Source of the DNA: Hwanghaeella grinnelliae
GTDB lineage: Bacteria > Pseudomonadota > Alphaproteobacteria > UBA8366 > Aestuariispiraceae
Assembly: GCF_004005845.1 (NCBI RefSeq)
Contig: NZ_SADE01000001.1
Coordinates: forward strand, 1-64,000
Reading direction: 5' to 3'
DNA length: 64,000 nt
Shown: positions 6,716 through 54,818 of the stretch, one piece after another
How the letters are laid out: each line of letters begins with the position of its first letter
Position numbering within the stretch: the first letter of the stretch is position 1
Translations under genes and position numbers: made by a program
The notes under the pieces: generated by a model
What the model saw: only the letters and a program-made list of their open reading frames with translations
Database searches by the model: none
What the model was told of the DNA's origin: nothing

Positions 6716-9700
6716 CTAAAGACCCGGTCGTCGTCTGAGGTCGAGTGTCGACGGAAATTCAGGATGCGGCTTTTCCGGGACCGGTTCGTAAAACCCGGGG
6801 GTGTGGCCGTGCGGTTCAAACCGCGCCAGCCGACGCGCATCCGCCTCATTCGTGTTGACCGGGAATGTCTCGTAGTTCCTGCCGCCGGGATGGGCCACAT
6901 GATAGGTGCAGCCGCCGATCGCCCGGCCGGTCCAGGTGTCGAAGATGTCGAAGGTAAGCGGCGCATCGACAGGAAGGACAGGGTGCAGCGCCTTTGCGGG
7001 CTGCCAGGCCTTGAACCGGACGGCGCCGACCGCAACACCGGCCGTTTCCGTTTTCTGCAGCGGCACGCGGCGTTTGTTACAGGTGATGATGTAACGATCC
7101 ACATCGGTCGTGGTCATCTTTACCTGAAGTCGCTCGACGGAACTGTCGGTATAGCGCACCGTGCCGCCGATTGCGCCGGTTTCACCGAGTACGTGCCACG
7201 GCTCCAGGGCCTGCCGAAGTTCCATTTCGACGCCTTCATACTCGACCGCGCCGCAGAAGGGGAAACGAAATTCAGCTTGTGCTTCATACCATTCCGACCT
7301 GACGGGAAAACCGTGATCGGCAAGGTCGCGCAGGACTTCCAGGAAATCGGTCCAAACAAAATGCGGAAGCATGAAACGGTCGTGCAGAATGGTGCCCCAA
7401 CGGGTGAGCTTCCCCGTCAAAGGTTCCTGCCAGAGGCGTGCGACCAAGGCACGGATCAAGACCTGCTGGGCCAGGCTCATGCGCGGGTCCGGCGGCATTT
7501 CGAAGCCACGGAATTCGACAAGGCCGAGGCGGCCGGTCGGTCCGTCGGGTGAGTACAGTTTGTCGATGCAGATCTCAGACCGGTGCGTATTACCGGTCAC
7601 GTCGATCAGGGAATTTCGGAGCAGACGGTCCACCAACCAAGGGGGCGGCGCATCGCCTTGGCCGGGCGGTGGGATCTGGTCCAGAGCCATTTCCAACTCA
7701 TACAGACTGTCGTGGCGTGCCTCGTCAATGCGTGGCGCCTGACTGGTCGGGCCGATGAACAGGCCGGAAAAAAGATAGGACAGGCTGGGATGTCGCTGCC
7801 AATGCAGGATCATGCTGCGCAGCAAGTCCGGTCGGCGCAGGAATGGGCTGTCCAGTGTCGTCGCACCGCCGACCACCACATGGTTTCCGCCACCGGTGCC
7901 GGTATGGCGGCCATCGATCATGAACTTGTCGGCGCCCAGGCGCGTCTGTCGCGCTTCCTCGTAGACCGTTTCCGTTATGTTGACGCATTCCTGCCAAGTC
8001 GAGGCAGGGTGAATATTCACCTCGATGACACCTGGGTCCGGGGCGACGCGGATGACGTTCATCCGCGGGTCGTTCGGCGGTGTGTAGCCTTCGATATGGA
8101 CCGGCAGACCAAGTTCCTTGGCCGAACTTTCCGCGACCGAGATAAGCTCCAGGTAATCCTCCAGCCGTTCCACGGGCGGCATGAAGACGCAGAGCCGGCC
8201 GTCTCGGGGTTCCACCGACAAGGCGGTGCGAACGGCGTCGCTGTCTTTGTCCAATTGCTGGTCGACACGTTCTTGTCCCGGCTCCGCGGCGGTGAAGCTG
8301 GCACGGGCCTGATCGATTTCGTCAAACTCGGGAAGCTCGCCCCTCGGTTCGGTCGGATCCGCGGGATGGATATACGGGTATTGCGCTTCGGACAGGTGCG
8401 GCAAGGCTTCCAGCGGCAGGCGGAAACCGACCGGGCTGTCACCCGGCACCAAGTACAAATGCCCGCGGCGCAGTTTCCACTTTTCAGACCGCCAGCGCGG
8501 GCCCTTGCTTTTCGCCTGCCAACGCTGAATCGGCAGGACATAGCCGGACGGGTCGGTCAAACCGTGGTCGAAGACCTTGGCGATACGATGGCGGGCCTCA
8601 GGGTCCTTCAGCTCAGAATTCTGCGGCGTCACGTTTTCAGGCAGGTTGCCTTCCTTGATGATCCATTCGGCCGGATCCTCATAGGCCGCTACGACCAAAT
8701 CGCTGTCGAGGTCCAGGCGCTTGGCGATTCCGTTCAGCAGTTGCTGTGCCGCTTCGGGCGTCGCGCCGGTATCCGCGTCTTCCTCCGCGACAAGATCCGC
8801 GTTTTGCCAGATCGGCTTGCTGTCGCGCCGCCAATAGAGGGAGAAGGTCCAACGCGGCAGGCTTTCACCCGGATACCATTTGCCCTGCCCGTAATGCAGG
8901 AAGCCGCCGGGGGCGAAACGGTCGCGCAACCGCCGGATCAGGGTGTCCGCCAAGGCGCGCTTCGTCGGTCCGACCGCCTCGGTGTTCCACTCCTTGGCTT
9001 CGAAATCGTCAATCGACACGAAGGTGGGTTCACCGCCCATTGTCAGGCGCACGTCGTTCGCCGTCAGGGTCTCGTCGACCTGTTCACCCAGCGCGTTCAG
9101 GGCCTGCCAAGCGTCATCGGAAAACGGCTTAGTGATGCGCGGGTGCTCGGCGACCCTCTTGATCTGCATATCAAAGTCAAAATCGACAACCGCCGAACTT
9201 GCCGTGCCTGAGATTGGCGCGGCATTGCGGAAATGCGGTGTGGCCGCCAGCGGGATGTGACTTTCCCCGGTCAGCAGGCCGGAGGTCGGGTCTAGACCGA
9301 TCCAGCCGGCACCTGGCATGAAAACCTCCGCCCAGGCGTGCAGATCCGTGAAGTCGTGGTCCGTGCCGCTGGGACCATCCAGGGCCTGTAGGTCCGGCTT
9401 CAATTGGATCAGGTAACCGGAAACGAAACGCGCCGCGAAGCCCAGGTTTCGAAGCACCTGAACCAGAAGCCAGCTGGAATCGCGGCATGACGCCTTGCCG
9501 ATTTCCAAGGTTTCTTCCGGCGTTTGTACGCCCGGCTCCATGCGGATGACGTAATCAATTTCATTCGAAATGCGCGCGTTCAGATTAACGAAGAAATCGA
9601 CGCAGCGCTGCTCGGACCGATCGATGCTGTCCATAAAGGTCTGCAGCCTGGGGCCGACCGGTTCCGGCGTGCGGTAGATCTGCAGGTCGGACAGATAATC

Positions 9701-40074: not shown

Positions 40075-40743
40075 CTAGTCGAACAATTCGATATCGCCTT
40101 CGGGTTGTTTTTCGGCTATCCGGATACGCTTCTTGTATTCTTGCTGGGCGATGGTTTGCGCGCGTGTCGGGTCGACCGTGCGGACCATTACTTTGCCGCT
40201 CTCAGGGAAGTAGCGGATCATGCGTGGATGAACGCCGCGAAGGCTCTTGGAGACGACCTTGAGGCCTTCGTTTGACAGATAGTCTTCAATGAAATCCGCG
40301 TTCTTATGGCCGATATCCATTCCCCCGGCTAACACGTTCCCGCCGCCAAAGACTTTAACTTCCAACCGTTTTCGGTCGCCGCCGCGCTTCAGGATTTCGT
40401 TGATCAGCTGCTCCATTGCAAAGTTCCCGTATCGTGTCGGCAATCCGGCATCGCGGGTCTTCTTGGCGCTGTCCTGTTCCATGTCCCCATAGGGCAGCAG
40501 GAAATGATTTATGCCGCCAACCTTTGTTAGCGGATCCCTGATGCAGGCGGATATGCACGACCCGAGGATCGTTGAAATGATCTCGTCGATACAAGAGACG
40601 TACCATTCCCCTTGGAACACCTTGACGATGCGGCGTCCCGTCTCCCGGTCCTGGAAGAAACGCTTGGTACCGTCGTCGTCAATGTTTCCGAACCACGTAT
40701 TTCCTTTGCCGGAATCGGTGGTCGCTGTGTTTGGATTTCTCAC
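40075..40743 (-). CDS. cheD: chemoreceptor glutamine deamidase CheD (first)
   Basis: A 222-residue CheD with catalytic T58, C63 (ILGSCISACIRD) and H80 (GGINHFLLP), and KVFGGGNV near 150. An N-terminal extension of about 45 residues precedes the family domain. GTG 40743 is chosen: GGCGGGG lies 8 bp upstream and it falls 16 bp after the pentapeptide gene. The C-terminus is EGDIELFD, a tail shared with two other proteins of this island. It should deamidate receptor glutamines. Confidence 0.87.
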   Translation of the reverse strand: MRNPNTATTDSGKGNTWFGNIDDDGTKRFFQDRETGRRIVKVFQGEWYVSCIDEIISTILGSCISACIRDPLTKVGGINHFLLPYGDMEQDSAKKTRDAGLPTRYGNFAMEQLINEILKRGGDRKRLEVKVFGGGNVLAGGMDIGHKNADFIEDYLSNEGLKVVSKSLRGVHPRMIRYFPESGKVMVRTVDPTRAQTIAQQEYKKRIRIAEKQPEGDIELFD

Positions 40744-40759
40744 CAGTGCAACCCCGCCT

Positions 40760-41896
40760 TCAACTCTGTTCCAAGGCCCGGATGGATGTATCCAAGGATG
40801 GGGATTGAGTGCGTTGGTCTTGATCGACGATGGTTTCAACGAGGACCGCGTCGGTAAAGTCCGCTGCTTTAACGCTTGATCCGGAAAGACGGACCGGTTT
40901 TGCTTTCCCGATCACGGCGCCGGTCGCGGATACAATTGTTCTTGGCGAAAGATCGGCGGCCGAGAAATTCGCGGTATCGAGATTGCAGTCAAGGAAGTCG
41001 GCGCCCTGGGCTGATGCTTTCGTGAAGTTGCAGCCCGAAAGATCGCAGTTCCGGAACGAAGCCAGCGTTAGCTCAGCGCCGGAAAAATCCGAGCCGGACA
41101 TGTCTGCGCCATCGATTTGCGCGCCGCTCAATTTCCGTCCTGTGAACGTCTCACCTGCAAGGGGATGTCGACCCTCCATGGAAGCCAGAAGGATCAACCG
41201 TTCGCCATCCCCGGTTTTGATCCAGGATTCGTGGCGATCGAGCATTTCAAGAAAGTCTTCGCGGGCGTAGGGTTCAACAATGGCGCCGGCAAGAACGGCG
41301 CCGTCCAATATCGCGCCTTTCAAATCCGCACCTCTTAGGTCCGAACCGGATAAATCTGCCTTGTTGAAATCAGCGCCGGTCAGGGTGGCGCTCGCCAAGG
41401 AAGCGTTGGATAGATCAGCCCCGCTGAAATTCGTATTCAGGCAAATTGAATCGTCCAACAAAGCGTTTGCCAGATTGGCGCCGCTGAAGGAGGCGCCGGA
41501 CATATCGGCGCCTTGCGCCCGGATCCCATCCAGTTTGGCACCATCCAATATTGCGGATCTGATTTTGTGGTGAATGACCGTCGGTGTATCGGCGTTGGCA
41601 GCAAATGAGAGGCCACGCTTCATGTTCGACTCTGTCATATTGGCGTCCGTGAAGTCGCAACGATCCAGGCACGCGCCGCGGAAATCCACTTCTATGAGGC
41701 TGGCGCGGCGAAAGGTTGCCTGTAAGAGATTCGCCTTGAAGAAATCGGCCCCGTCCAGGATCGCGTCGGAAAAGTCGCAACCCTCAAGGTCGCACTCTTT
41801 GAATACCGCTCCGCGCAGATCCTGGCCTACAAAGGACGTAGATCGCAGATCTTGGCCAGCGTAGTTTTGGCGTGAGGTTGGCATGTCGTCGGTCAT
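40760..41896 (-). CDS. pentapeptide-repeat protein next to cheD
   Basis: A 378-residue protein made mostly of A-(D/N)-(L/F)-x-x repeats, expected to form a right-handed quadrilateral beta-helix. Two repeat blocks are separated by a non-repeat segment of about 50 residues containing EDFLEMLDRHESWIKTGDG. Early lines include GADFFKANLLQA and GADLSNASL. ATG 41896 is used; an upstream TTG is less likely. It is 16 bp upstream of cheD on the same strand and probably cotranscribed, so a scaffolding role in signalling is possible. Confidence 0.87.
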   Translation of the reverse strand: MTDDMPTSRQNYAGQDLRSTSFVGQDLRGAVFKECDLEGCDFSDAILDGADFFKANLLQATFRRASLIEVDFRGACLDRCDFTDANMTESNMKRGLSFAANADTPTVIHHKIRSAILDGAKLDGIRAQGADMSGASFSGANLANALLDDSICLNTNFSGADLSNASLASATLTGADFNKADLSGSDLRGADLKGAILDGAVLAGAIVEPYAREDFLEMLDRHESWIKTGDGERLILLASMEGRHPLAGETFTGRKLSGAQIDGADMSGSDFSGAELTLASFRNCDLSGCNFTKASAQGADFLDCNLDTANFSAADLSPRTIVSATGAVIGKAKPVRLSGSSVKAADFTDAVLVETIVDQDQRTQSPSLDTSIRALEQS

Positions 41897-42178: not shown

Positions 42179-43075
42179 ATGCTAAAATTTCTTGAACCTT
42201 CCAGCATTGCCATCTTTTCCGATCGGTCCATCGAACCTGCCATCGTTGACGCACTGATGGATGCTTCCATGTCCGTCACGCAGCGGGAACTGTCGGATGC
42301 CGATTTCACAGACCCTTCGCTTGCGGATGTGAATGTCGTCGTGATCGCCTCGGAATCCGAAGAAATGGCCGATCAAGCAGTATCCACGATCAGTACAATC
42401 AGGAAGACCGAAGCGCTTAAAGCAACACCGATCGTATGTTTGGGATTTTCACCACGATTGACCAGCGCCGGCGAAACTAAGTCGCTCGGTCTGCTATTTT
42501 CCGTGAAGGACACCACGTCTATAGAGGACAAATTGCTGACGATACGGTCCGCGGTCGGCAGCGCGAATCAATTCCGAAGTCTCTTGCGGGAAGCCTCTGT
42601 CCGTGAGTCGGCGATCGGCCTGATCCGGTCCGGCGTGTTTGAGTTGGAAACCCTGCAGGAAGCGGAGCACCTAGCCACCATGCTATCAAAGGCCTGCCCG
42701 GACCCTTCGGTGGCAGCCTTTGTTCTGATGGAAATCATGGTCAACGGGATCGAGCACGGCAATCTTGGAATCTCCAATGAGGAGAAAAGCCAACTCTTGG
42801 AAGCAGGGACCCTTCAGGAGGAGATAGCACGCCGCGCCGCATTGCCGGAGAATCTCGGCAAGGCCGTTTCGGTGGAATTCGTTAGGTATCGTGATCGCGC
42901 GGAATTCGTGATCAAGGACAGTGGTGAGGGCTTCGATTGGCGCCGGTATCTACAGGACGTGACACAGGACTCTGAGAAGCTGAATGGGCGAGGGCTCCGG
43001 CTTGCTTTCGCGTTGGAAAGCGTCACCCTTCGGTATTCGGGAAACGGCAATACGGCGACCTTGGTCCTTACCTGA
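42179..43075 (+). CDS. RsbW-like ATPase with pseudo-receiver N-terminus
   Basis: A 298-residue protein. Residues about 8-130 have the secondary-structure order of a receiver (AIFSDR, VNVVVIASE, TPIVCLGF, LLFSVKD) but lack the phospho-acceptor Asp. Residues about 160-298 form a GHKL ATPase of the anti-sigma RsbW type: N-box E185, N189, H193 (MEIMVNGIEHGN), G1 DSGEGFDW and G2 NGRGLRLA. GGAGGA precedes ATG 42179. It converges with the STAS gene at 43091, which is a plausible partner-switching antagonist. Confidence 0.8.
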   Translation: MLKFLEPSSIAIFSDRSIEPAIVDALMDASMSVTQRELSDADFTDPSLADVNVVVIASESEEMADQAVSTISTIRKTEALKATPIVCLGFSPRLTSAGETKSLGLLFSVKDTTSIEDKLLTIRSAVGSANQFRSLLREASVRESAIGLIRSGVFELETLQEAEHLATMLSKACPDPSVAAFVLMEIMVNGIEHGNLGISNEEKSQLLEAGTLQEEIARRAALPENLGKAVSVEFVRYRDRAEFVIKDSGEGFDWRRYLQDVTQDSEKLNGRGLRLAFALESVTLRYSGNGNTATLVLT

Positions 43076-43432: not shown

Positions 43433-44542
43433 TCAGAACAATTCGATATCGTCTGAAGCCTCGCTGTGGTCGGCACCGTCGGTAGAGTCTTCTTCAACGC
43501 CATCAAGATTCGTTTCATTGCCTTCCAGGGCATTCTTGATGAAACGCTCCCGCATTTCCCCCAAATGCAGTTGCGACACGGCCTGCAAAATACGTTCGGC
43601 ATCCACCTCCGCTTCCCCGAGGTCCGGGTACAACTCCCGGGTTCGCGCTTCCTGTTCCGAGGTCAGGTCGGAAAGGAACTTCAAGGTTTCTTTGATCAAC
43701 TCCAGCCTTTGCGCTGTGCGGTCCTGGAATTGCATCCCCGTAATCATTGCACCAATCGTGCTGGTCATTTCCTGTGATTGGCTGGCGGTGTTCTGGATCG
43801 TCCTCCCAAAATCATTGCTCTGGCGGACGACGGATTCCATGAGTTGTTCGATCCGTTCTTTGGCCAGAATGTTTTCGGACATGTCCATCGTCGCAACGTC
43901 CTGAAGCGTTTGATAGCCGCGCTCCACCCCTTGCGATACGGCCGTCATCTGTTCGTTAATCCGTTCGGACACCGATGCGATACTGCCGGACAAGGTTCGA
44001 ACCTCATCGGCCACGACGGAAAAACCAGCGCCGGCCGATCCCGCCCTGGCCGACTCAATCTTCGCGTTCAAGGCAAGCATGTTTGTCCGATTGGTTAGGT
44101 CCCGGATCTCCTTGACGCAGGATTCCGCCAACTTGACGTTCCCCTGTAGATCCTCCAGCGCGTACATCATCGTCACGGCTTGCTCGGACACGATGACGAT
44201 CTTGTTCACTAAGTCGCTCAGGTTTTCCTGTAGGTCATCGAAGACGTCGGCTAGGTCCAGTTCCTCGCCATTGACGTCCACACGACTTCCCTTGGTGAGA
44301 ATTGATTCAAGTTGTCGCGACTGTTCGGCGGCGAACCCGACCAGTTCTTTAAATTGGGCCGCAAGTTTGTCCGTACTGACCTCGACAAGGGACGAGGCCG
44401 TATCGATTTCCGTGGCCAACGCAGTGAAGCTGCGCCGCTGCGTTTCGGACAAAGATATCCATTGCAGGAACGCCTTTGCGACCGCCTCGTCAGGTAAGTC
44501 CCCTGAAGCATCTGTTTTCTTATTCTTGGCCAATACGTTCAC
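43433..44542 (-). CDS. cytosolic MCP-like protein with CheZ-type motif
   Basis: A 369-residue protein without signal peptide or membrane segment. Residues about 100-260 are an MCP signalling hairpin, tip near EIRDLTNRTNMLALNAKIESARAGSAG (145-171). Then GMQFQDRTAQRLE (269-281) places D274 and Q278 exactly as the D-x-x-x-Q catalytic pair of CheZ phosphatases, and the last residues are SDDIELF, like the acidic-hydrophobic CheY-binding end of CheZ. It could join receptor-like coiled coil with CheY-P phosphatase activity. GTG 44542 starts it, 52 bp after cheB. The function assignment is inference. Confidence 0.75.
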   Translation of the reverse strand: MNVLAKNKKTDASGDLPDEAVAKAFLQWISLSETQRRSFTALATEIDTASSLVEVSTDKLAAQFKELVGFAAEQSRQLESILTKGSRVDVNGEELDLADVFDDLQENLSDLVNKIVIVSEQAVTMMYALEDLQGNVKLAESCVKEIRDLTNRTNMLALNAKIESARAGSAGAGFSVVADEVRTLSGSIASVSERINEQMTAVSQGVERGYQTLQDVATMDMSENILAKERIEQLMESVVRQSNDFGRTIQNTASQSQEMTSTIGAMITGMQFQDRTAQRLELIKETLKFLSDLTSEQEARTRELYPDLGEAEVDAERILQAVSQLHLGEMRERFIKNALEGNETNLDGVEEDSTDGADHSEASDDIELF

Positions 44543-44594: not shown

Positions 44595-45671
44595 TTAAAT
44601 CCGCATTTGTTGTTTCTGGGGCCCAGCGGTCACGGCGTTGGTGATTTCTGCGGCGATCCTTGCCAGCGGTAATTGCCGAATGACGGCGCCAATTTCATAG
44701 GCGACACGCGGCATCCCGTAGACCACGGATGTGGCCTCGTCCTGACCGATGGTAAATGCACCGGCCTCTCTAAGGCGGAGCAATCCTGCCGCGCCGTCGC
44801 GACCCATTCCGGTGAGAATGACACCAATGGAGTCTTTGCCGGCAACATCGGCAACCGAGTCGAACAATACGTCGCAGGACGGTTTGTGCCCGTTGACAAG
44901 GTCGGTATCCAGTAGCCGGCAGACGAAATTGGCCCCGGATCGAACCAAGGCCAGATGTTTGCCGCCGGGTGCTATATAGACGTGGCCGCGCAGGACGCGT
45001 TGCCCGTCCGATGCCTCACTGACATTCAAGCTCGTCGTCCTATCCAGACGATCCGCAAAGGATTTCGTGAAGCCGCCCGGCATATGCTGTGTGACCAAGA
45101 CGGCGGGCCCATCGGAAGGAAGTTCGGATACGACTTGTCGGACAGACTCGACACCGCCGGTCGAGGATCCGATTGCGACGATCTTCTCTGATGAGGAATA
45201 GGCACGCGCTGGGGCCTTGACCACTTGCTCGGTGCTGGCCCGCCTATTTTTGTCCAGCGGTTTGACCCGGGCCGTCGCCGCGCATTTGATAATGGACTGA
45301 AGTTCCGAGCTTCGGCCCTTGAGCGATCTTTCTATGTCTGAGGTCGGTTTGCCGACGACATCGATTGCACCCAATTCCAACGCGCGGAAAGTGGCGTCGG
45401 CGCCCTTTTGCGTGAGGGAAGAAACCATTACCACCGGCATTGGCCGCAAGGTCATGATTTTTTCAAGGAAGTCGAGGCCGTCCATCTTGGGCATTTCGAT
45501 GTCCAGCGTGACGACGTCTGGCAGCAGCTGCTTTATCTTGGCACGTGCTTCGTAGGGGTCGGCCGCCGTGCCGATGACTTCAATCTCGGAATCCGCGGAT
45601 AGGACCGCCGTCAAAATCTGGCGCATCAGGGCCGAGTCGTCGACGATCAGAACGCGAACCTTTTTTCCCAT
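44595..45671 (-). CDS. cheB: chemotaxis methylesterase CheB
   Basis: A 358-residue enzyme: receiver domain (VLIVDDSALMR; acceptor in TLDIEMPKMDG), linker, and the methylesterase domain with Ser in AIGSSTGG, His in TQHMPGG and Asp in GMGRDGA. It removes receptor methyl groups and deamidates glutamines when phosphorylated by CheA. ATG 45671 has AGGGGGG upstream and is 10 bp after cheD. Confidence 0.94.
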   Translation of the reverse strand: MGKKVRVLIVDDSALMRQILTAVLSADSEIEVIGTAADPYEARAKIKQLLPDVVTLDIEMPKMDGLDFLEKIMTLRPMPVVMVSSLTQKGADATFRALELGAIDVVGKPTSDIERSLKGRSSELQSIIKCAATARVKPLDKNRRASTEQVVKAPARAYSSSEKIVAIGSSTGGVESVRQVVSELPSDGPAVLVTQHMPGGFTKSFADRLDRTTSLNVSEASDGQRVLRGHVYIAPGGKHLALVRSGANFVCRLLDTDLVNGHKPSCDVLFDSVADVAGKDSIGVILTGMGRDGAAGLLRLREAGAFTIGQDEATSVVYGMPRVAYEIGAVIRQLPLARIAAEITNAVTAGPQKQQMRI

Positions 45672-45681
45672 CTCATCCCCC

Positions 45682-46326
45682 CTAAAAAAGCTCGGCGTCG
45701 CCACCAACGGCGACACGGTCCATCCCGTCGGCCAACTGGCGTTCTTCCCGCACCAGTTCGACGGCGTTCGCGTCCGCGATGACTTTCATTTTCACCGTTC
45801 CGGTCGTCGGGAAAAAATGGACGCGACGGGCATGCATGCCGCCGACATGACGGGCATCGACCGCGAAGTGTTCGAGGGCAAGAAAGCGTTCGACAAAGTC
45901 CACATTGCGTTGACCGATCGATCCCGTGGATCCGATCATTTTGGCCCCTCCGAAAACTTTGAACTCAAGACGGTTTTTGGCTGCCCCTCGCTTGAGCATT
46001 TCGTTGATCAATTTCTCCATTGCGTAGGCGCCATAGCGCATCATGTCTCCGTCAATCTTATCGCCGCCCTTGTCCGGCAGCATGAAGTGATTGAGCCCGC
46101 CGATACCCGAATGCCGGTCATGGATGCAGGCAGCGACGCAGGACCCCAACAATGTGACAATCATTTCGTTCGGTGCCGCGGACACATAAACTTCGCCCGC
46201 ACCGACATGTACGGCGTGACGATTGAACCGGTGATCGAAGTACCGCTTTGCCGACGGTTGCCCCATGGGCGGCACGGGCAGCCCGCGCGGCGCCTGCGCG
46301 ACGGAAAGGGTTGCCGGCCGGCTCAT
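45682..46326 (-). CDS. cheD: chemoreceptor glutamine deamidase CheD (second)
   Basis: A 214-residue CheD with T58, C63 (LLGSCVAACIHD) and H80 (GGLNHFMLPD), and KVFGGA. A Pro-rich N-terminal extension (PRGLPVPPMGQP) precedes the domain. It ends in GGDAELF, related to the ELF tails of the first CheD and of the MCP/CheZ-like protein. It overlaps cheR by ATGA, so it is the operonic CheD, while the copy at 40075 is separate. Confidence 0.92.
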   Translation of the reverse strand: MSRPATLSVAQAPRGLPVPPMGQPSAKRYFDHRFNRHAVHVGAGEVYVSAAPNEMIVTLLGSCVAACIHDRHSGIGGLNHFMLPDKGGDKIDGDMMRYGAYAMEKLINEMLKRGAAKNRLEFKVFGGAKMIGSTGSIGQRNVDFVERFLALEHFAVDARHVGGMHARRVHFFPTTGTVKMKVIADANAVELVREERQLADGMDRVAVGGDAELF

Positions 46327-47180
46327 TTGTCTATCTTCCGGTATATCGTCCGACCCAGCATTTCGAAGCTGTCCCGCGCGAAGGTTAGGGTTTCGGAATG
46401 ACCTACATAAAGCCATCCCCCTTTTCGGAGCAGGGCCGCGAACTGCTCGACCAGTTTCTGCTTTGTCGGATTGTCAAAGTAGATCATGACATTTCGGCAG
46501 AAGATCGCGTCAAAAGGGCCATGCATTGGCCACTTTTCGAGCAGGTTTAAATGCTTGAAGGCGATTAGCTTTCGCAAGTCCTTTGACATCACTGCGAGGC
46601 CTTCGGATTCCCGTGACTTCAGGTCGACATACTTGCGTTGGTATTCTGCCGGGATACCTTTTGCGTCTTCGGCGGAATAGAGTCCGTTCCGTCCCCGGTC
46701 CAACATGTTCGTGTCCAGGTCCGTCGCCAGAATTTTTGCATCGTATTTCTCGATCCCCGGTAATCGACCCCGTACCGTCATGGCGATGGTATAGGGCTCT
46801 TCCCCCGAAGAGCAGCCGGCGGACCATATCCGCATCTTGTTTTTGCCGATGCCTTGGCCTTTGGACACTTCGGACATGACGGTGCTGCCCAAATGATCGA
46901 AGTGATGTCCTTCGCGAAAGAACTTCGTCAGGTTGGTCGTGATCGCGTTGATCAGGAAGACGATTTCCTCCGGTCCTTCCCGTCCTTCCAGACGCTTTCG
47001 GTAGTCCGCGAAACTGCGCAACCCCAAGGTCCTAAGGCGCCTGGCAAGACGGCTATAGACCATGTTCCGTTTGTGATCCTGCAGGACAATACCTGTCCGC
47101 TCGCGCACCAAGGTGCGCAGATCCTCGAAGTCCGCCTTGCTAAAGGCAAACTCCCGGCTTGGCTCATCAAGTTTCGTCAT
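46323..47180 (-). CDS. cheR: chemotaxis methyltransferase CheR
   Basis: A 285-residue SAM-dependent methyltransferase with the CheR N-terminal helical domain (FEDLRTLVRERTGI) and catalytic domain (RIWSAGCSSGEEPYTIAM; DAIFCRNVMIYFD). It adds methyl groups to receptor glutamates. A GWEEF pentapeptide at the end of the adjacent MCP is a probable docking site for its beta-subdomain. Confidence 0.95.
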   Translation of the reverse strand: MTKLDEPSREFAFSKADFEDLRTLVRERTGIVLQDHKRNMVYSRLARRLRTLGLRSFADYRKRLEGREGPEEIVFLINAITTNLTKFFREGHHFDHLGSTVMSEVSKGQGIGKNKMRIWSAGCSSGEEPYTIAMTVRGRLPGIEKYDAKILATDLDTNMLDRGRNGLYSAEDAKGIPAEYQRKYVDLKSRESEGLAVMSKDLRKLIAFKHLNLLEKWPMHGPFDAIFCRNVMIYFDNPTKQKLVEQFAALLRKGGWLYVGHSETLTFARDSFEMLGRTIYRKIDK

Positions 47181-47231: not shown

Positions 47232-49841
47232 CTAGAATTCCTCCCAACCGTCGTCTTGATGGCCGCCACCTGTCTTGGTGGGGGCTGATGGGGCCGGTTT
47301 TTGAGCCGGCTTGGAAGCGGGTCGTGCCTGCGCCGCAGGTGCGGGGCCGGAAGACCGGTTTTCAGTCTTGGCTGCGCCGCCACCCGATCCGCCTTCGCCG
47401 ATGTCGAAAACGGAGACCAGTTTCATCAAGGATTCGGCCTGGTCTTCCAGGGAACGAGCAGAGGCATTGCTTTCTTCCACCAATGCCGCGTTCTGTTGGG
47501 TCATTTCGTCCATCTGCGTGACCGCGGCATTGATTTCATCGACGCCGCTTGCCTGCTCGCGGCTCGCTGCTGCGATTTCGGAGACGAAATCGGCGACCTT
47601 CTTGATCGATTCGACAATTTCCGAAAGTTGCCCGCCGGCACCCTGGACGAGGTCGACCCCTTCCTTCACCTGCGCATTACTGTCGCTGATCAAGGATTTG
47701 ATGTCTCGAGCAGCTTCGCTAGACCGCTGCGCCAAGGTCCGAACCTCGGACGCGACGACCGCGAAACCCTTGCCAGCTTCACCTGCCCGGGCGGCTTCCA
47801 CCGCGGCATTCAGCGCAAGCAGGTTCGTCTGGAAAGCGATCTCATCGATCACGCCGATGATGTCGGAAACCTTTTGGGCTGACTCCTCAATCCGGTTCAT
47901 GCTGTCAACGGCCCGACCGACGATTTGGCCGCCGGACTCGGCAACACTGCGCGCGGTAACCGCCAATTGGTTGGCTTGTTGGGCGTTGTCGGCGTTCTGA
48001 CGAACGGTTGTCGACATTTCCTCCATAGATGCAGCGGTTTCTTCCAGGTTCGACGCCTGAGTCTCGGTCCGTGCTGAGAGGTCGTTGCTGCCCGACGCAA
48101 TCTCGGACGACGCGCTGGCAATGTCGTTGGCGGAGACCATGATCTCCGAAACGACCGAAGCCAGTCGCTCAGAGGTTTGGTTTACGTCCTGTTTGATCGT
48201 GTCATAGGTGCCTTGGTATTCGCTCGTGATGCGGTGGGTCAGGCGACCTTGCGACAACGCGGAGAGGGAGGCCGCGACATCGTCGAAGACGCCTCGGATA
48301 TTGTCGTTGATTTGGTTGATTGAGCGGGAGAGGTTTTCCATGAAGCCGCTCTTCCCTTCCAGAGATACGTTCTGGGAGAGATCGCCGGCGACGATCGCAT
48401 CGACAATGGAAGCGATTTCCCGTTCCACAGCCAACTCTTCCGTCTGATCCCGCCACTCGACGACGGTTCCCAGGCGCTCGCCCTCGTCATTGACGATGGC
48501 TGTGGCAACAAGAGCGAAATCCAAACCACCAACGGTAATGTTGGTATGGTACGACCCTTTCAAGTTCTCCAACATGCCGCGTTGATGTGACGGATTCTTA
48601 TGGAAAGAGTCGATATTGGTACCGATAAGTTTGCTGGTGTCGAAACCGGGCAAGGTCTTGCGGATATCTGCTTCACGGCCGCGCAGCATCTCCAAGACGG
48701 CCTGGTTCATGTAGACGATCTCATAATTGTTGTCTGCGACCATGACGTTCGCGGTACAATTGTCGAGCGCCACGCGCACCCGTTTGTTCTCGGCTGCTAC
48801 CTGCTGCGCCGCTTGTTCGACGACCAGTTTTTCAGTGATATCCGACCATTCCACGACGGTGCCGAGACGGTCGCCGCCGTCGCTTATGATTGGGCTGGCT
48901 ATCAGGTCGAACGTCCGCCCGCCGACTTTAATCGTGGTGGCGAGTGTCTGGGTCAATCCCTTGATGATTCCCCGCTGATGCGCCGGATTCTTGTGGAAGA
49001 CGTCGACATTTTGACCGAGGAGGCTGTTGGTATCCAACGCCGGCAGATCCTTTTTCAGGTCGGCTTCGGCATTCTTCATCATTTGCACCATCGTCGTGTT
49101 CATATAGACGATGTTCATGTCGTTGTCGGCGACCATGACATTGGCGTTGCAGTTATCCAGTGCCGAACGGATGCGGGCTTCGCGGGCTTCACGGGCGCGC
49201 TCCTCCGTCACATCGGCCCATTCTACGACGGTGCCGAGACGTTCGCCGTTGGTGCCGCGGATCGGGTTTGCGATCAAATCGAAGATCCGGCCGCCGACAT
49301 GAATTGTTGTCGTAAGGGTCTGCGAAAGGCCTTGGATCAGGCCGCGTTGATGTGCGGGATTTTTGTGGAAGACATCGACGTTCTGGCCGATGAGATTGCG
49401 GGCATCCAGCATCGGCAGATCCTTCCTCAGGTCTGCTTCCGCATTCTGCATCATCTGCATCATCGTCGCGTTCATATAAACGATGTTCAAATCGCTGTCG
49501 GCCACCATGACATTCGCGTTGCAGTTCTCGAGGGCGACGCGCAGGCGTTCCGTTTCGGGATCATAGGCTGGGATTCCCGGCTCCGCGCCGTTTAATCCAC
49601 TTGCCGCGCGATAGGAAACAAACCCAAGGGCGCCCGACGCGGCCACCCCACCGACCAGGAAGAACCAAAGTACCGCGACCATGGAATTTCCGGGCGGCAC
49701 TTGCTGAATCGCTATACCCAATCCTACAGCCAGGATAAGGGCCAATATTGCGTGAGAAACAAGGATAAGGGTCCTTGCGTTCCATCCCAAAGGTGCGGTT
49801 CCCATTGTGGGGTTAGCCGTCGTCATGTGTCCCATTGCCAT
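47232..49841 (-). CDS. methyl-accepting chemotaxis protein with three PAS domains
   Basis: An 869-residue receptor. Two membrane helices (about 24-45 and 53-78) are joined by only about 8 residues, so there is no periplasmic sensor; sensing must be by three tandem cytoplasmic PAS domains starting near 100, 224 and 355, each with N-C-x-A-N-V-M-V-A-D and V-F-H-K-N-P or S-F-H-K-N-P. A HAMP-like segment is near 480-535, then the signalling hairpin ([26 protein letters not shown]). A Gly/Pro/Ala-rich linker ends in GWEEF, the type of tail that tethers CheR. GGAGGA precedes ATG 49841. Confidence 0.92.
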
Positions 49842-49855
49842 GTCGTCCTCCGTCC

Positions 49856-50425
49856 TCAGGCTTCGGCCTGTTGCAATAGCGGCGTGTTGCTGCCGGCCAG
49901 GATGCCGTTCTCCACGTCACGCATGCTGAAAAGTTTCTCCGCGTCCAAAAGAGCGACCATGCGGTCCTTGACCGTGGCAAGGCCGCTTAAATATTCGGTG
50001 TCGATTTGACGGTCCATTTTCGGGACCGATTTGAAATCGTCCCGTCCGATGCTGATGATGTCCGAAACGGCATCGACCAGCATGCCCGCCAAACGGTCGG
50101 CGATCGCGATGATCACGATCACGTGGATGTTTGTTGCTTCAGTGCGCCCTTGATCGAAACGGCACCGAAGGTCGAAGATCGGAACGATTTCACCGCGCAG
50201 GTTCAGCACACCCCTCATGTGAGCGGGGGTGTTCGGCAAGACAGTGGGTTCCGACCACCCTTTGATTTCACGGACGGCCATGATGTCGACACCGTACTCT
50301 TCATCGCCGATGGTGAAGGTGATGTATTGAAACGTCTCGGCTGAACGCGAATCTTCATTGACGGCGTCCTGGTCGGGCGTCTTCATCATGTTACCCGCAG
50401 ATGCGGATGCTGCTTCAGGCGCCAT
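49856..50425 (-). CDS. cheW: chemotaxis coupling protein CheW
   Basis: A 189-residue CheW domain ([53 protein letters not shown]) with about 30 unconserved N-terminal residues. It links the receptor to CheA. ATG 50425 overlaps the cheA stop by 11 bp. Confidence 0.94.
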
Positions 50426-52649
50426 CTTTCACCTCCATATTTCCGTGGTCGGTAGGCTTTTCGGCCCCGGCAATCGCAAGCGCCGGCGGTGCGATCGCCA
50501 GCGTCTGGTTGGTGTTGCGGCTGCCATTGTTTTTGGATTGAGCCATCATGTTCAGGCCGTCGATGTCCAGGATCAGAGCGACGCGCCCATTTCCAAGGAT
50601 TGTGGCGGCGGAAATACCGGAAACCGGGTCGTAGTTGTGCTCCAGGCTTTTGATCACGACTTGCTGTTGTCCCAACAGGTCGTCAACAAGAACACCAACC
50701 AATTCCCCGCCTTCGATTTCGACGATGACGACAATGCCTTTGTCCGGCTCCTGGGTTGCCTGTGGTATTCCAAACAAGTGGTATAGCCGAATGAGGCGTA
50801 TATAGTTTCCGCGAACGGAAACGACGTCCGCGCCGTTTGACAATCTGTTCAATTGTTTCTTCGACGGCCGGATGCTCTCGACGATCGATGTCAACGGGAT
50901 GATGTATTTTTCATCCGCTACGGCGACGACCATGCCGTCCAGAACTGCCAGAGTAAGCGGCAGGGACAGCGTGAATTGTGTGCCGCGGTCTGGCTCGGAC
51001 CGCACGGAAATGCGGCCGCCAAGGCCGATGATGTTTCGCCGTACGACATCCATGCCCACGCCGCGGCCCGACACATCTGTTACGGCATCCGCGGTGGAGA
51101 AGCCCGGCGCGAAGATCAGCTCGTCAATCTGTTCGTCGGTCAGGTTGTCATCGCGGCTGATAACGCCTTTCTCGATGGCCTTTTCCTGGACACGCTGTCT
51201 GTTGATGCCACGACCATCGTCGCTGACCCGAATTTCGATCCTGCCGCCGCGATGTTCGGCGATCAGGTGAATGGTCGCCGTTTCCGGTTTTCCGCTGTCC
51301 GTCCGTTCCGCTGCGGTCTCAATGCCATGGTCCAAGGAATTGCGGATCATATGGGTAAGCGGATCGGCCAGTTGCTCGATAACGGTTTTGTCCACCTCGG
51401 TCATTTCGCCGGTCATGACGAGCTGGACCTTCTTGTCCAACTTCGCAGCCAGATCACGAACCAACCGCGGCATGCGGGCGAACACGGAATTCACCGGCTG
51501 CATCCGCACCGCCATGACGCTTTCCTGAAGCTCGCGGGTATGCATCACCAGATCATCAAAGCCTTGGCTGAGGCCAGTCGACATATCTGCCGGCAGTTCG
51601 CCAATACGCTGCTTCAGCATCGCCTGGGTGATCACAAGCTCGCCCACCATGTTGACCAGACGGTCCACACGGTCCAGTTCGACGCGAATGGATCCGACCG
51701 TACCGGATTGAGCGCCTCCGCCACCGGGCTTTGCCTGAACCGGCTTGTTCCCGGCAGGTGCCGTGGCGGCAGCGGCGGCCACGGCCGGGGTGGGAACGTT
51801 TTGTTGGGCAGGTTCTTTGCCCGTGTCGCTTTCGTCCGGTGGTGTCGGTTCGGAAGCCGGGGGCTCTTCAGGGGCGTCTTCGGCCTGGGCCGCGGCAGCA
51901 TCGCCCACTTCGTCCAGGGCAATTGTCAGATCGCAATCATCCTCGACGAACTCAAAGACCTCCCGGATGTCATCCTCCGAACAATCCGCAAGCAGGTTGA
52001 TTGTCCATGACAGATAAGAAAGGTCCGGATCAAGCGCTTCAATCGTCGGGAGCTTCGAGGTGTCGACAACGATTTCCGCCGTGCCCAACCCGGCTAACTC
52101 TCTAAGCAGAAGCAAGGGTTCGTTAGCATATTTGAACAGTTCCGGGTGGGGTATGAAGGATATCTTATAGCGCCGGTTCCCGTGAGGGGGGACTGGCAGT
52201 TCAACCCCTTCCGACACGTGTTCGTGCAGGTTTTCCGCCGCGGCGGGTTGTCCCCCGTCGATTAGGGCGTTGAGAGCTGCCTTCAGCCGCTGTGTTACGG
52301 CGTCATCCGTAACCGTCTCGTCGCGGGCCGCGTCGACCAGGGATATCAGGTGGTCGTTGCACGCGATCATCGTGTCGATCACATGCTCGGTTGTCTCCGC
52401 TTCATGGTTTCGCAGTTTGTCGAGAACTGTCTCGAATACATGCGCGAAACCGATCAAATCCGTGAACTCGAACGCTCCCGCGCCACCCTTCACAGAATGG
52501 ATGGCACGGAAGATTGCGTTCAGGTCCTCGATATCGACAGGGCCGTCCGAGAGACGAATTCCACCGAGTCGAGACTCGGAATCCGCAAGAAGCTCCGAAC
52601 ACTCCTCGAAGAACGTGGCCTTGAATTGCTCGAGTGGATCTCCAGACAC
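50415..52649 (-). CDS. cheA: chemotaxis histidine kinase CheA
   Basis: A 744-residue kinase in the order Hpt (phospho-acceptor H51 in AIHSVKGGAGAF), P2-like region with FIPHPELFKYANEP, Pro/Ala-rich linker (about 260-315), dimerisation helices, GHKL ATPase (LTHMIRNSLDHGIE, GRGVGMDVV) and CheW-like P5. GTG 52649 starts it. One CheA for this whole set implies that both receptor-like proteins feed the same kinase. Confidence 0.95.
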   Translation of the reverse strand: MSGDPLEQFKATFFEECSELLADSESRLGGIRLSDGPVDIEDLNAIFRAIHSVKGGAGAFEFTDLIGFAHVFETVLDKLRNHEAETTEHVIDTMIACNDHLISLVDAARDETVTDDAVTQRLKAALNALIDGGQPAAAENLHEHVSEGVELPVPPHGNRRYKISFIPHPELFKYANEPLLLLRELAGLGTAEIVVDTSKLPTIEALDPDLSYLSWTINLLADCSEDDIREVFEFVEDDCDLTIALDEVGDAAAAQAEDAPEEPPASEPTPPDESDTGKEPAQQNVPTPAVAAAAATAPAGNKPVQAKPGGGGAQSGTVGSIRVELDRVDRLVNMVGELVITQAMLKQRIGELPADMSTGLSQGFDDLVMHTRELQESVMAVRMQPVNSVFARMPRLVRDLAAKLDKKVQLVMTGEMTEVDKTVIEQLADPLTHMIRNSLDHGIETAAERTDSGKPETATIHLIAEHRGGRIEIRVSDDGRGINRQRVQEKAIEKGVISRDDNLTDEQIDELIFAPGFSTADAVTDVSGRGVGMDVVRRNIIGLGGRISVRSEPDRGTQFTLSLPLTLAVLDGMVVAVADEKYIIPLTSIVESIRPSKKQLNRLSNGADVVSVRGNYIRLIRLYHLFGIPQATQEPDKGIVVIVEIEGGELVGVLVDDLLGQQQVVIKSLEHNYDPVSGISAATILGNGRVALILDIDGLNMMAQSKNNGSRNTNQTLAIAPPALAIAGAEKPTDHGNMEVKDGA

Positions 52650-52676: not shown

Positions 52677-53045
52677 TTAAGAAGGACAGACTTTCTGAAC
52701 GACCTGTAGAAGCTTTTCGGGGTTGAACGGTTTAACGATCCATCCTGTCGCGCCTGCTTCTCGGCCTTCCGTTTTTTTCGCACCGTCGGCTTCCGTCGTT
52801 AGAACGAGTATCGGAGTGCTGCGAAAATTCGGTTTTTGCCGTAGGTTCTTGATCAAGGTCAGTCCATCCATGCGGGGCATATTCACGTCCGTGATGACCA
52901 AGTCGAACCGTCCCGATTGCGACTTACCCAAAGCATCTTCACCATCCACCGCTTCCGTTACCGAATAGCCGGCTTGTCCGAGGGTAAAACTCAGCATGTC
53001 GCGCATGGTTTTCGAGTCGTCGACAGCCAGAATCTGCAAGCTCAT
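52677..53045 (-). CDS. cheY: response regulator CheY
   Basis: A 122-residue single receiver with acidic pair D9-D10, acceptor D53 (VITDVNMPRMDG), switch T near 83 and K near 104 (WIVKPF). It overlaps the STAS gene by ATGA and lies 27 bp before cheA. Its target could be the flagellar motor, but the partner-switching neighbours leave an alternative output possible. Confidence 0.93.
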   Translation of the reverse strand: MSLQILAVDDSKTMRDMLSFTLGQAGYSVTEAVDGEDALGKSQSGRFDLVITDVNMPRMDGLTLIKNLRQKPNFRSTPILVLTTEADGAKKTEGREAGATGWIVKPFNPEKLLQVVQKVCPS

Positions 53046-53377
53046 TTATCGGGGCTCCATTTTTCCATAAGTTGACCTAGACCCAACTCCGTCATGGCGC
53101 TTTGCATGACGGTTGACGCACCGGTCATGCGCACGCGGTGTCCTCGTTCCTCCACATCACGATCGGCGGCGATCAGAACTTGGGCACAAGCGGCTGACAT
53201 CCGTTCGACGTCGCTTGCGTCCAGATTCAGGTCACGATCGGAATCCACTGCAAGCATCAGGGCCTTCTTAAGTCCGACCGCTTCGGAGATGTCCATTGTC
53301 ACAGGCAAAAGTAGTTCAGCCGCCGCCTCGCTGGATTTGCTCTTCTTGTTCGATTTTTGGGCGACGCTCACCACCAC
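53042..53377 (-). CDS. STAS-domain protein at the head of the che operon
   Basis: A 111-residue STAS domain with NLDASDVERMSAACAQVLIAA, the form common in chemotaxis loci of alphaproteobacteria. A serine lies in the acceptor region but the usual D-S-A-G is changed to M-S-A-A. Three successive GTG codons (53377, 53374, 53371) could initiate; the first is best placed after AGGGGATCT. It overlaps cheY. Confidence 0.85.
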   Translation of the reverse strand: MVVSVAQKSNKKSKSSEAAAELLLPVTMDISEAVGLKKALMLAVDSDRDLNLDASDVERMSAACAQVLIAADRDVEERGHRVRMTGASTVMQSAMTELGLGQLMEKWSPDK

Positions 53378-53627: not shown

Positions 53628-54818
53628 TCAGCCCGGCCGGGAAACCAGGACGACTGTCAAATCGTCAGGAAGGGGCGTTGCGATGTTCGGGTAGAAATGC
53701 TTCCGCAGCATGGGGCCGGCTTCTCGGCCGCCGTCAAGGATCGCCGCGGCCAGAAAAGGCGGTGCGTCGTCCATCCCTATGGATTCGCCTTTGAGTCGCG
53801 GCGTTTCAATCAACGCGTCGCTGTAAAGGCAAAGATATTCATTCGGTTTGAAATGTGCGTGCATATCGGCATAGGCCGCCCCTTCCAGAGCACCCAATAA
53901 AAAGCCTTTGGATTCAAGCGCATTGGATTTTGGCTCGGATAGAAGACCAATTACAGGTGGGGGGGAGGCGGCGCTGGCGAAGTAGACACTGTCTTCGCAA
54001 GGGGTCACATAGGCGAGGAACATAGTTGCGAACTGATCGATAGGAAGATCGCGAACCAGTTTGGTGTTCAAATCGGCCAGAACTTCGCTAGGCTTCATGT
54101 TCGGCATGTCGATATTGTCCATCACCGCCTGAAAGCGGAACGTGTTCAGCGCCGACCCAACACCATGACCGGAGAAGTCCACAATATATACGGCGAAGGT
54201 GGTGTCGCTGATTTCTTTGACACCCCAGAAATCCCCGCCGAGTTCCGACGACATCTCGTGGTGTTCTGAGATTTCCACGCCGTATTTAAGCCCTATTCGC
54301 TGCAGTACGTCCGGCGAGGGCAGCAGGTCCTCCTGCATCGTTCGCGCCAGGCTCAGTTCCGCTTCCATGCGCTGTCGGTAGCTTCGCAATTCGGCGAGGT
54401 AGACTTGTCGCTCTATCACGCCCTGCACGCGTTCGGCCAGAAGGGTCGAATCCAGCGGTTTGGATAATATGATCGTTGCGCCGGCACGCATCATTTCATT
54501 GCGGTCGTCATTGGATGTCCGGGCGGAAGAAACCAGGATCGGCAAATCCTCGTCTTGCCGATCTATCCTCACTGAGCGGAGAACGCCAAAGCCGTCCAAT
54601 ACCGGCATGCTGATATCCAGAATGACGCAGTCCGGCGACAGTCTGTCTATCTTTTCAAGGGCTTCGACACCGTCCTCTGCATAGTGAAGCGTGGAAAAGC
54701 CGTGTTTCGTCAACGTCGAACCGATCAGGCGCCGTGTAATATGGTCATCGTCCACAATCAGAATGGATTTAGACGAGATGTCGATTTCCGTCGGCGGTTT
54801 AATAGAGGCTTGGGGCAT
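53628..54818 (-). CDS. receiver-PP2C (RsbU/SpoIIE-like) phosphatase
   Basis: A 396-residue protein. Residues about 18-135 are a receiver with acidic triplet VDDDH and acceptor D68 (VILDISMPVLDG). A coiled linker (RQRMEAELSLARTMQEDLLP) leads to a SpoIIE-type PP2C domain with metal-binding Asp in GGDFWGV and VDFSGHGVGSAL. RsbU-like enzymes dephosphorylate STAS proteins. Two STAS genes (43091, 53042) and an RsbW-like ATPase (42179) lie in the same island. It is 250 bp upstream of the che operon, same strand. Confidence 0.88.
   Translation of the reverse strand: MPQASIKPPTEIDISSKSILIVDDDHITRRLIGSTLTKHGFSTLHYAEDGVEALEKIDRLSPDCVILDISMPVLDGFGVLRSVRIDRQDEDLPILVSSARTSNDDRNEMMRAGATIILSKPLDSTLLAERVQGVIERQVYLAELRSYRQRMEAELSLARTMQEDLLPSPDVLQRIGLKYGVEISEHHEMSSELGGDFWGVKEISDTTFAVYIVDFSGHGVGSALNTFRFQAVMDNIDMPNMKPSEVLADLNTKLVRDLPIDQFATMFLAYVTPCEDSVYFASAASPPPVIGLLSEPKSNALESKGFLLGALEGAAYADMHAHFKPNEYLCLYSDALIETPRLKGESIGMDDAPPFLAAAILDGGREAGPMLRKHFYPNIATPLPDDLTVVLVSRPG

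Follow-up and report, generated by a model that had tools for sequence, protein, structure and literature searches.

The window analysed here is a stretch of 64,000 nucleotides from the alphaproteobacterium Hwanghaeella grinnelliae, and it holds a chemotaxis gene cluster on the minus strand. In the order of transcription, the genes encode an RssB-like regulator, a STAS-domain protein, CheY, CheA, CheW, a PAS-containing methyl-accepting chemotaxis protein (MCP), CheR, CheD, CheB, the protein called P0001 here, and another STAS-domain protein. The features are as follows.

53628..54818, minus strand: receiver and SpoIIE-type serine phosphatase regulator, RssB-like (PF00072 and PF07228; NF045505 below cut-off)
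53042..53377, minus strand: STAS-domain protein (PF13466)
52677..53045, minus strand: CheY, single domain, proposed substrate (PF00072)
50415..52649, minus strand: CheA, one of two in the genome
49856..50425, minus strand: CheW (PF01584)
47232..49841, minus strand: PAS-repeat, HAMP, MCP protein, ending in DGWEEF
46323..47180, minus strand: CheR (PF01739, E 6.7e-64)
45682..46416, minus strand: CheD, tail GDAELF (PF03975)
44595..45716, minus strand: CheB (PF01339 and PF00072)
43433..44542, minus strand: P0001, McpA-like/CheZ-like protein, 369 aa, GTG start
44288..44488, minus strand: P0001 residues 19-85, N-terminal helix of the proposed CheZ-like hairpin (AlphaFold; kept in hairpin-less relatives)
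43889..44254, minus strand: P0001 residues 97-218, MCP signalling hairpin, proposed insertion (AlphaFold, PF00015, tip conserved)
43631..43879, minus strand: P0001 residues 222-304, C-terminal helix with D274 and Q278 (AlphaFold)
43709..43732, minus strand: QFQDRTAQ, residues 271-278 of P0001 (codons by arithmetic)
43721-43723 and 43709-43711, minus strand: codons of D274 and Q278 of P0001 (by arithmetic)
43436..43453, minus strand: C-terminal tail DDIELF of P0001
43091..43399, minus strand: STAS-domain protein (PF01740/PF13466)

The MCP encoded at 47232-49841 has three alike N-terminal PAS repeats, a HAMP domain, and the pentapeptide GWEEF; by analogy with the published Aer2-like role, it is likely to be the array-forming receptor. 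Downstream of the cluster lies a second cheD gene, at 40075-40839 (PF03975; NF010013 at 220.4 bits against a cut-off of 223). Facing the STAS gene that follows P0001, on the plus strand at 42179-43075, is a HATPase_c_2 protein that falls just under the Pfam cut-off and has weak RsbW matches. Taken with the STAS proteins and the SpoIIE-type regulator, it suggests that the cluster has a partner-switching branch. Among the scanned window proteins there is neither a CheZ nor a CheC, as the original prediction had it. Genome-wide, CheC (PF04509) is absent too, so that CheC as the phosphatase of the locus is rejected, but there are three CheZ genes, all outside the locus; two CheA and 31 MCP genes are counted in the genome as a whole. 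The statement that cheZ is missing therefore holds for the locus only.

The open reading frame of P0001 contains QFQDRTAQ at residues 271 to 278, with D274 and Q278 four residues apart, just as predicted from the sequence. Its position after the hairpin tip of an MCP-like protein is likewise borne out, residues 125-267 being an MCP signalling domain (PF00015, E 9e-21). No membrane-spanning segment is seen (Kyte–Doolittle maximum 1.24 over 19 residues), and the protein is apparently cytosolic. It shows a single match to the methylation site pattern, near residue 253, and none to PF04509; its C-terminus reads ...SDDIELF, without the pentapeptide aromatic.

Is the motif more than a coincidence of spacing? 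Two of the 30 other MCP loci of the same genome could not be read; of the 28 that could, 12 carry a bare D-x-x-x-Q more than 60 residues past the hairpin, and thus the bare motif is uninformative alone. The pattern QFxDxxxQ, however, is found in none of the 28. Since searches based on the motif see what the motif selects, about 76 N-terminal residues of P0001 served as the sole query against 385 alphaproteobacterial genomes. This motif-blind search retrieved 21 relatives in 19 of the genomes, and all 21 keep D-x-x-x-Q, 20 as QFxDxxxQ and one as QYQDRTSQ. On these two results, a chance motif is rejected. In an alignment of 21 C-termini, whose other rows are 24-43% identical to the window protein, six columns are invariant, namely, Q271, F272, Q273, D274, Q278, and the final F369; the claim of a conserved CheZ-type site in a receptor-like coiled coil is supported.

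Profile searches with C-termini in the alphaproteobacterial and phylum sets gave 52 loci, from which four true CheZ (L065-L068) and a mis-extracted locus (L077, a CheB) are subtracted; both D and Q are present in all of the remaining 47. Members among these that the extraction pattern had missed, with QVQDRAKQ and QFADIIVQ, still have both residues. The 30 best-scoring loci of a second class of the phylum, that of genome G466 and presumably the Gammaproteobacteria, also keep D and Q without exception; for three of them (L237, L252, and L250), the motif was read individually after the ORF script had given no frame or a spurious one. In a set of 63 loci, and hence in the alignments A6 and A8, conservation of the motif is partly by construction, since QFQDR was one of the search patterns. 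The frame was found there by the motif pattern in 61 cases, and L178 and L184 were read by hand. The latter, at a contig end, has QFQDRTKQ. The former deviates, its motif reading QFQDRVQE, with D present and E replacing Q; this frame (7377-8315) lies on a contig binned as Pelagibacter, is without the ELF tail, and is possibly decayed. A further deviation is the 696-aa protein of L036 (7098-9188, genome G052), a tandem duplication of the whole protein with QFQDRNSQ in the first half and no motif in the second.

Nor is the motif confined to H. grinnelliae, a possibility that is rejected by family matches across the Alphaproteobacteria and the phylum. Of 385 alphaproteobacterial genomes, 30 match a family profile made from four C-termini, four of them through a true CheZ; in the search across the phylum, 34 of 398 genomes match. 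Within the G466 class, a profile built on more distant members matches 96 of 321 genomes, short forms included. The nearest named relatives are plasmid copies in Pseudomonas sp. HR96 and Aeromonas sp. BC14, whose genes immediately precede that of a response regulator occupying the place of cheY and whose tails read D[IV]TFF; the four plasmid records found are annotated as methyl-accepting chemotaxis proteins. The short forms of the G466 class include ten open frames of 156-234 aa (L262-L271) without an MCP hairpin, all with QF[AEY]DxxxQ and an ELF-like tail (VTLF, IELF, VELF, or IEFF). The three that were scanned have no Pfam family above cut-off. Those of L265 (836-1441), L269, and L271 (735-1316) stand directly before cheR-cheD, and that of L263 (784-1458) has a gene of the CheW-receiver (CheV-like) type nearby. 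All ten have the look of stand-alone relatives of the DxxxQ/ELF kind.

Five relatives of 207-293 aa in the 63-locus set occupy the same slot after cheB and have no MCP hairpin. They come from Curvivirga aplysinae, Terasakiella pusilla, two Methylocystaceae bins, and one Rhodospirillales bin, and they retain QFQDRTSQ or QFQDRTAQ and a C-terminus of the form I[ED]LF. In a tree of 58 rows built without the hairpin region, at least two changes are needed to account for the absence of the hairpin, as forced by the starred branches; one of the five rows, L163, is a long branch. We read these absences as losses. With motif and tail kept where the hairpin is gone, and at least two changes in the tree, the conserved features are independent of the hairpin. 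The underlying alignment, A6, comprises 57 of the 61 frames (L138, L150, L177, and L183 were left out) and the window protein, while A8 has 48 rows. Where the hairpin is present, its tip is retained, with N159 in 53, E163 in 52, and F174 in 53 of the 53 hairpin-bearing rows. Tip and motif lie 117 or 118 residues apart in 35 of 61 members, these being the members with a tip recognised by pattern.

CheZ is a helical hairpin that carries its motif on the second helix and forms a four-helix bundle as a dimer. The Pfam model of CheZ, PF04344, gives no match to P0001 at E up to 1. Tested on eight relatives, it finds two below cut-off (E 0.0005 and 0.0017; 20.3 and 18.7 bits against 30.7) and has no match at E up to 10 in the other six, among them all five hairpin-less proteins; for the hairpin-less forms, Pfam and NCBIfam (five and four scanned) give nothing above cut-off. 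A search of PDB sequences with the C-terminal profile returned nothing below E 0.056. Profile-profile comparison does detect a likeness. Aligned by hhalign with eight CheZs, the five hairpin-less proteins give a 118-column match that brings the motifs into register (probability 87%, E 3.7e-6), and the score of 45.9 compares with at most 21.1 in 100 column shuffles and 17.0 for the reversed profile. With the motif masked, the score over the same range is 23.7 versus a shuffle maximum of 21.1, a narrow margin. Other family alignments are weaker against CheZ (37 to 79%), with the 21-row C-terminal alignment at 37% and E 0.00036. The profile from four C-termini also retrieved four true CheZs, confirmed by PF04344, at E 3e-6 to 8e-6. 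Around the motif, the hydrophobic register matches that of CheZ at zero offset (r 0.59), compared with at most 0.23 at 14 other offsets. Judged by the heptad register, D274 and Q278 would occupy b and f positions, outside the core, and both probably face outward, as had been anticipated.

The AlphaFold monomer model of P0001 (58 rows, mean pLDDT 81) has a helix at 19-85, a small beta turn at 87-96, hairpin helices at 97-167 and 172-218, a break, a motif-bearing helix at 222-304, and, beyond two short helices, a disordered tail. The monomer model of the hairpin-less Terasakiella protein has two helices, 6-94 and 100-174, the second of which carries the motif (D145 and Q149). Structure searches do not discriminate: the P0001 model finds receptors, and with the hairpin-less model, Foldseek and VIA-align find unspecific long helices (FtsX/EnvC, Smc, and PI3K iSH2). 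CheZ, for which a query with the E. coli protein finds 1kmi as the sole PDB sequence, is not among the 50 matches listed. Taken together, AlphaFold, profile-profile comparison, and heptad register point to a helical hairpin of the CheZ kind whose tip accommodates an inserted MCP hairpin. Probably the N- and C-terminal helices jointly make up the CheZ-like part, and the MCP hairpin is a dispensable insertion, as opposed to a receptor bundle that acquired a phosphatase site.

The tail bears on the question of partners. A terminus of the form hydrophobic-x-[LMF]-F ends all 61 frames of the 63-locus set, 29 of them with D[IV]ELF, and the family protein of L061 is without it. The acidic ELF end of P0001 had been compared to the CheY-binding tail of CheZ; the ELF end itself is there, as DDIELF, but the three CheZs of the same genome end in QxxIDALFD or QxxIDAMFD, and so the likeness to CheZ fails. 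It is CheD, in the window (45682-46416 and 40075-40839) and in the loci L126-L188, that has an ELF-type tail, with 34 of 46 CheD matches ending in this way. The tail shared by CheD and the P0001 family is a good lead and would point to a shared docking partner. The aromatic pentapeptide is present in 46 of 51 other MCP matches of these family loci. To read the P0001 tail as an aromatic CheR pentapeptide is rejected, both on the sequences and on the reported behaviour of the tail of P. aeruginosa McpA, in which valine replaces the aromatic and which binds none of four CheR proteins (cited in Ortega 2020, PMC7184735, as far as its accessible text goes).

The cluster has a counterpart in the literature. 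In the accessible text of Ortega 2020 (PMC7184735), F7 clusters of stage 1 are given nearly the same gene order, with an "mcpA-like chemoreceptor" in the slot of P0001; they differ in having two cheW-like genes and the serine phosphatase at the other end, and stage 1 is also reported to have two anti-sigma antagonists. There, F7 and F6 systems both have cheY in stages 1 and 2, and cheZ belongs to the F6 systems only; at stage 3, the mcpA-like gene is lost, and the F6 cheY/cheZ pair is kept in all species. The same text describes McpA-like proteins as unassignable to a heptad class and not needed for the array, which is unaffected by their deletion, and as having a strikingly conserved C-terminus that has no aromatic CheR pentapeptide and whose role is called unclear. 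Other accessible texts place VCA1088 in class 24H (PMC7534058) and, in an older paper, count CttP among the pentapeptide-bearing MCPs (PMC3062574). P0001 is no one-off: in the Alphaproteobacteria and beyond, its family takes the place that F7 clusters give to the "McpA-like receptor". In keeping with the original prediction of a new architecture, no description of a CheZ-type site in an McpA-like, receptor-like protein was found in a literature search covering the main texts of openly accessible papers. The prediction is amended in that the architecture belongs to a family and, by sequence and model, is probably a CheZ-like hairpin with an insertion rather than a receptor that gained a site.

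We propose that P0001 is a response-regulator phosphatase with the mechanism of CheZ, anchored at the array by its inserted MCP hairpin, and we regard this as probable. Helices 19-85 and 222-304 would form a CheZ-like helical hairpin, in which D274 and Q278, on the second helix, would position a water molecule to hydrolyse the aspartyl phosphate of CheY (52677-53045) in the manner of CheZ. With its receptor tip kept, the inserted MCP hairpin (97-218) would join the CheA/CheW array and so set the phosphatase beside the kinase, and the flexible tail ending in DDIELF would serve as a docking peptide. The CheY of the operon would be the most likely substrate. The analysis shows that the motif is conserved, that the hairpin can be lost, that the syntenic position is kept, and that the profile resembles that of CheZ; catalysis, the choice of substrate, binding to the array, and the partner of the tail are points that we infer. 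Members of the P0001 family, in the slot of the "McpA-like receptor", would then be the phosphatases that F7 systems lack. No ORF near the 63 loci and 18 further ones, many of them cut by contig ends, has the CheZ pattern F[QED][DE][LIVM]TG[QE]. A CheZ-type site in an McpA-like protein thus offers one answer to two puzzles, the F7 CheY without a cheZ of its own and the role of the McpA-like proteins. A phosphatase would also fit the report that arrays form without the McpA-like protein (accessible text of PMC7184735). If true, this would be a phosphatase plugged into a receptor array via a receptor hairpin, and it could be the off-switch that a large class of bacterial signalling systems is missing.

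The proposal has to be set against the simpler view that P0001 is an ordinary cytosolic chemoreceptor, with QFQDxxxQ serving the structure or regulation of the signalling bundle and no catalysis. The PF00015 match at E 9e-21, the tip kept in 53 hairpin-bearing rows, the annotation as an MCP in the four plasmid records, and the treatment of PA0180 and VCA1088 as receptors in the accessible literature (PMC7184735, PMC7534058) all speak for it. Against it, the motif is kept in five members that have no hairpin, and none of the 28 other MCPs read has QFxDxxxQ. Of 113 tail rows, which include four CheZ and one mis-extracted CheB, just one has an aromatic CheR pentapeptide (DSFELF, a loose match), and deletion of the McpA-like protein left the array unaffected, according to the accessible text of PMC7184735. 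We consider an ordinary receptor unlikely. Conversely, PA0180 is described as a trichloroethylene receptor associated with the F6 array (PMC7534058 and PMC7184735, in their accessible parts), and a role specific to F7 would sit badly with that.

Granted a DxxxQ phosphatase, its main substrate might be something other than CheY, either CheB or the SpoIIE-type RssB-like regulator, in a partner-switching branch with STAS. A relative of the STAS gene that follows P0001 occurs in 35 of 63 loci, many of which are cut by contig ends; STAS and RssB-like matches are both found in L193-L197, L199, L200, L205, L206, and L208 of 18 further loci, and a serine phosphatase with two anti-sigma antagonists is part of stage 1 in the accessible text of PMC7184735. 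Against this, the gene lies directly next to cheY in several family loci, and L169, L175-L177, and L181 are beside cheY without STAS or RssB-like matches, which makes a substrate other than CheY improbable to us. It could also be argued that P0001 is a catalytically dead relative of CheZ, a scaffold or sink that captures CheY-P and keeps it at the array, since similarity of profiles to CheZ is no proof of catalysis. D and Q, though, are among the best conserved positions, and a pure scaffold would have no need of them; we give this idea very little weight.

Returning to the array-anchored phosphatase, it is tempting to go further, although what follows is offered tentatively, as a conjecture that may well prove wrong. 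The McpA-like proteins would be receptor-gated phosphatases, with a CheZ-type domain interrupted by the hairpin, and together with the hairpin-less DxxxQ and ELF forms, they would be the general signal terminators of the ancestral F7 systems in the Proteobacteria and would have been displaced as CheZ came in together with the flagellar CheY. The receptor hairpin may even have a common origin with CheZ. Were the receptor gating true, the signalling state of the array would act on both the kinase and the phosphatase.

Among known systems, CheC and CheX would fill the same role as P0001. Their fold is different from the CheZ-like one. The motif of CheX is given as ExxN in the accessible text of PMC3510030, which also describes HisKA_3 kinases such as NarX, where DxxxQ is likewise needed for phosphatase activity toward the receiver. 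Unlike P0001, NarX is a histidine kinase and has no MCP hairpin. Closer to home is CheT of Sinorhizobium meliloti, likewise a DXXXQ phosphatase in an alphaproteobacterium and, in the review text available (PMC12654446), a protein without significant homology to known chemotaxis proteins and with a CheZ-like predicted structure; the comparison is by description only, and that text mentions no receptor hairpin for CheT. With the McpA-like F7 receptors (CttP/PA0180, VCA1088), P0001 shares the operon slot between cheB and STAS, the MCPsignal domain, and the conserved non-aromatic C-terminus. These proteins are published as having a predicted transmembrane region, whereas P0001 has none (Kyte–Doolittle maximum 1.24); in several more distant family members, the maximum exceeds 2. 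They are also published as receptors of unclear role, and the accessible text of PMC7184735 mentions no CheZ-type site in them.

CheZ itself requires DxxxQ for dephosphorylation, according to the accessible texts of PMC3510030 and PMC7750401. Like the CheZ of E. coli (PDB 1kmi) and that of Azorhizobium, P0001 has FQDxxxQ on the second helix in the same hydrophobic register and can be aligned with CheZ by profile; unlike them, it has an inserted MCP hairpin, belongs to a family with an [IV]ELF tail, and is not matched by the Pfam CheZ model. Because it falls short of the Pfam cut-off and lacks the CheZ tail, we do not file P0001 as a CheZ; we see in it a probable case of CheZ-type chemistry, housed in what is regarded as a receptor protein. 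A widespread family filed as chemoreceptors is apparently built as a signal-ending enzyme into which a receptor hairpin has been inserted.
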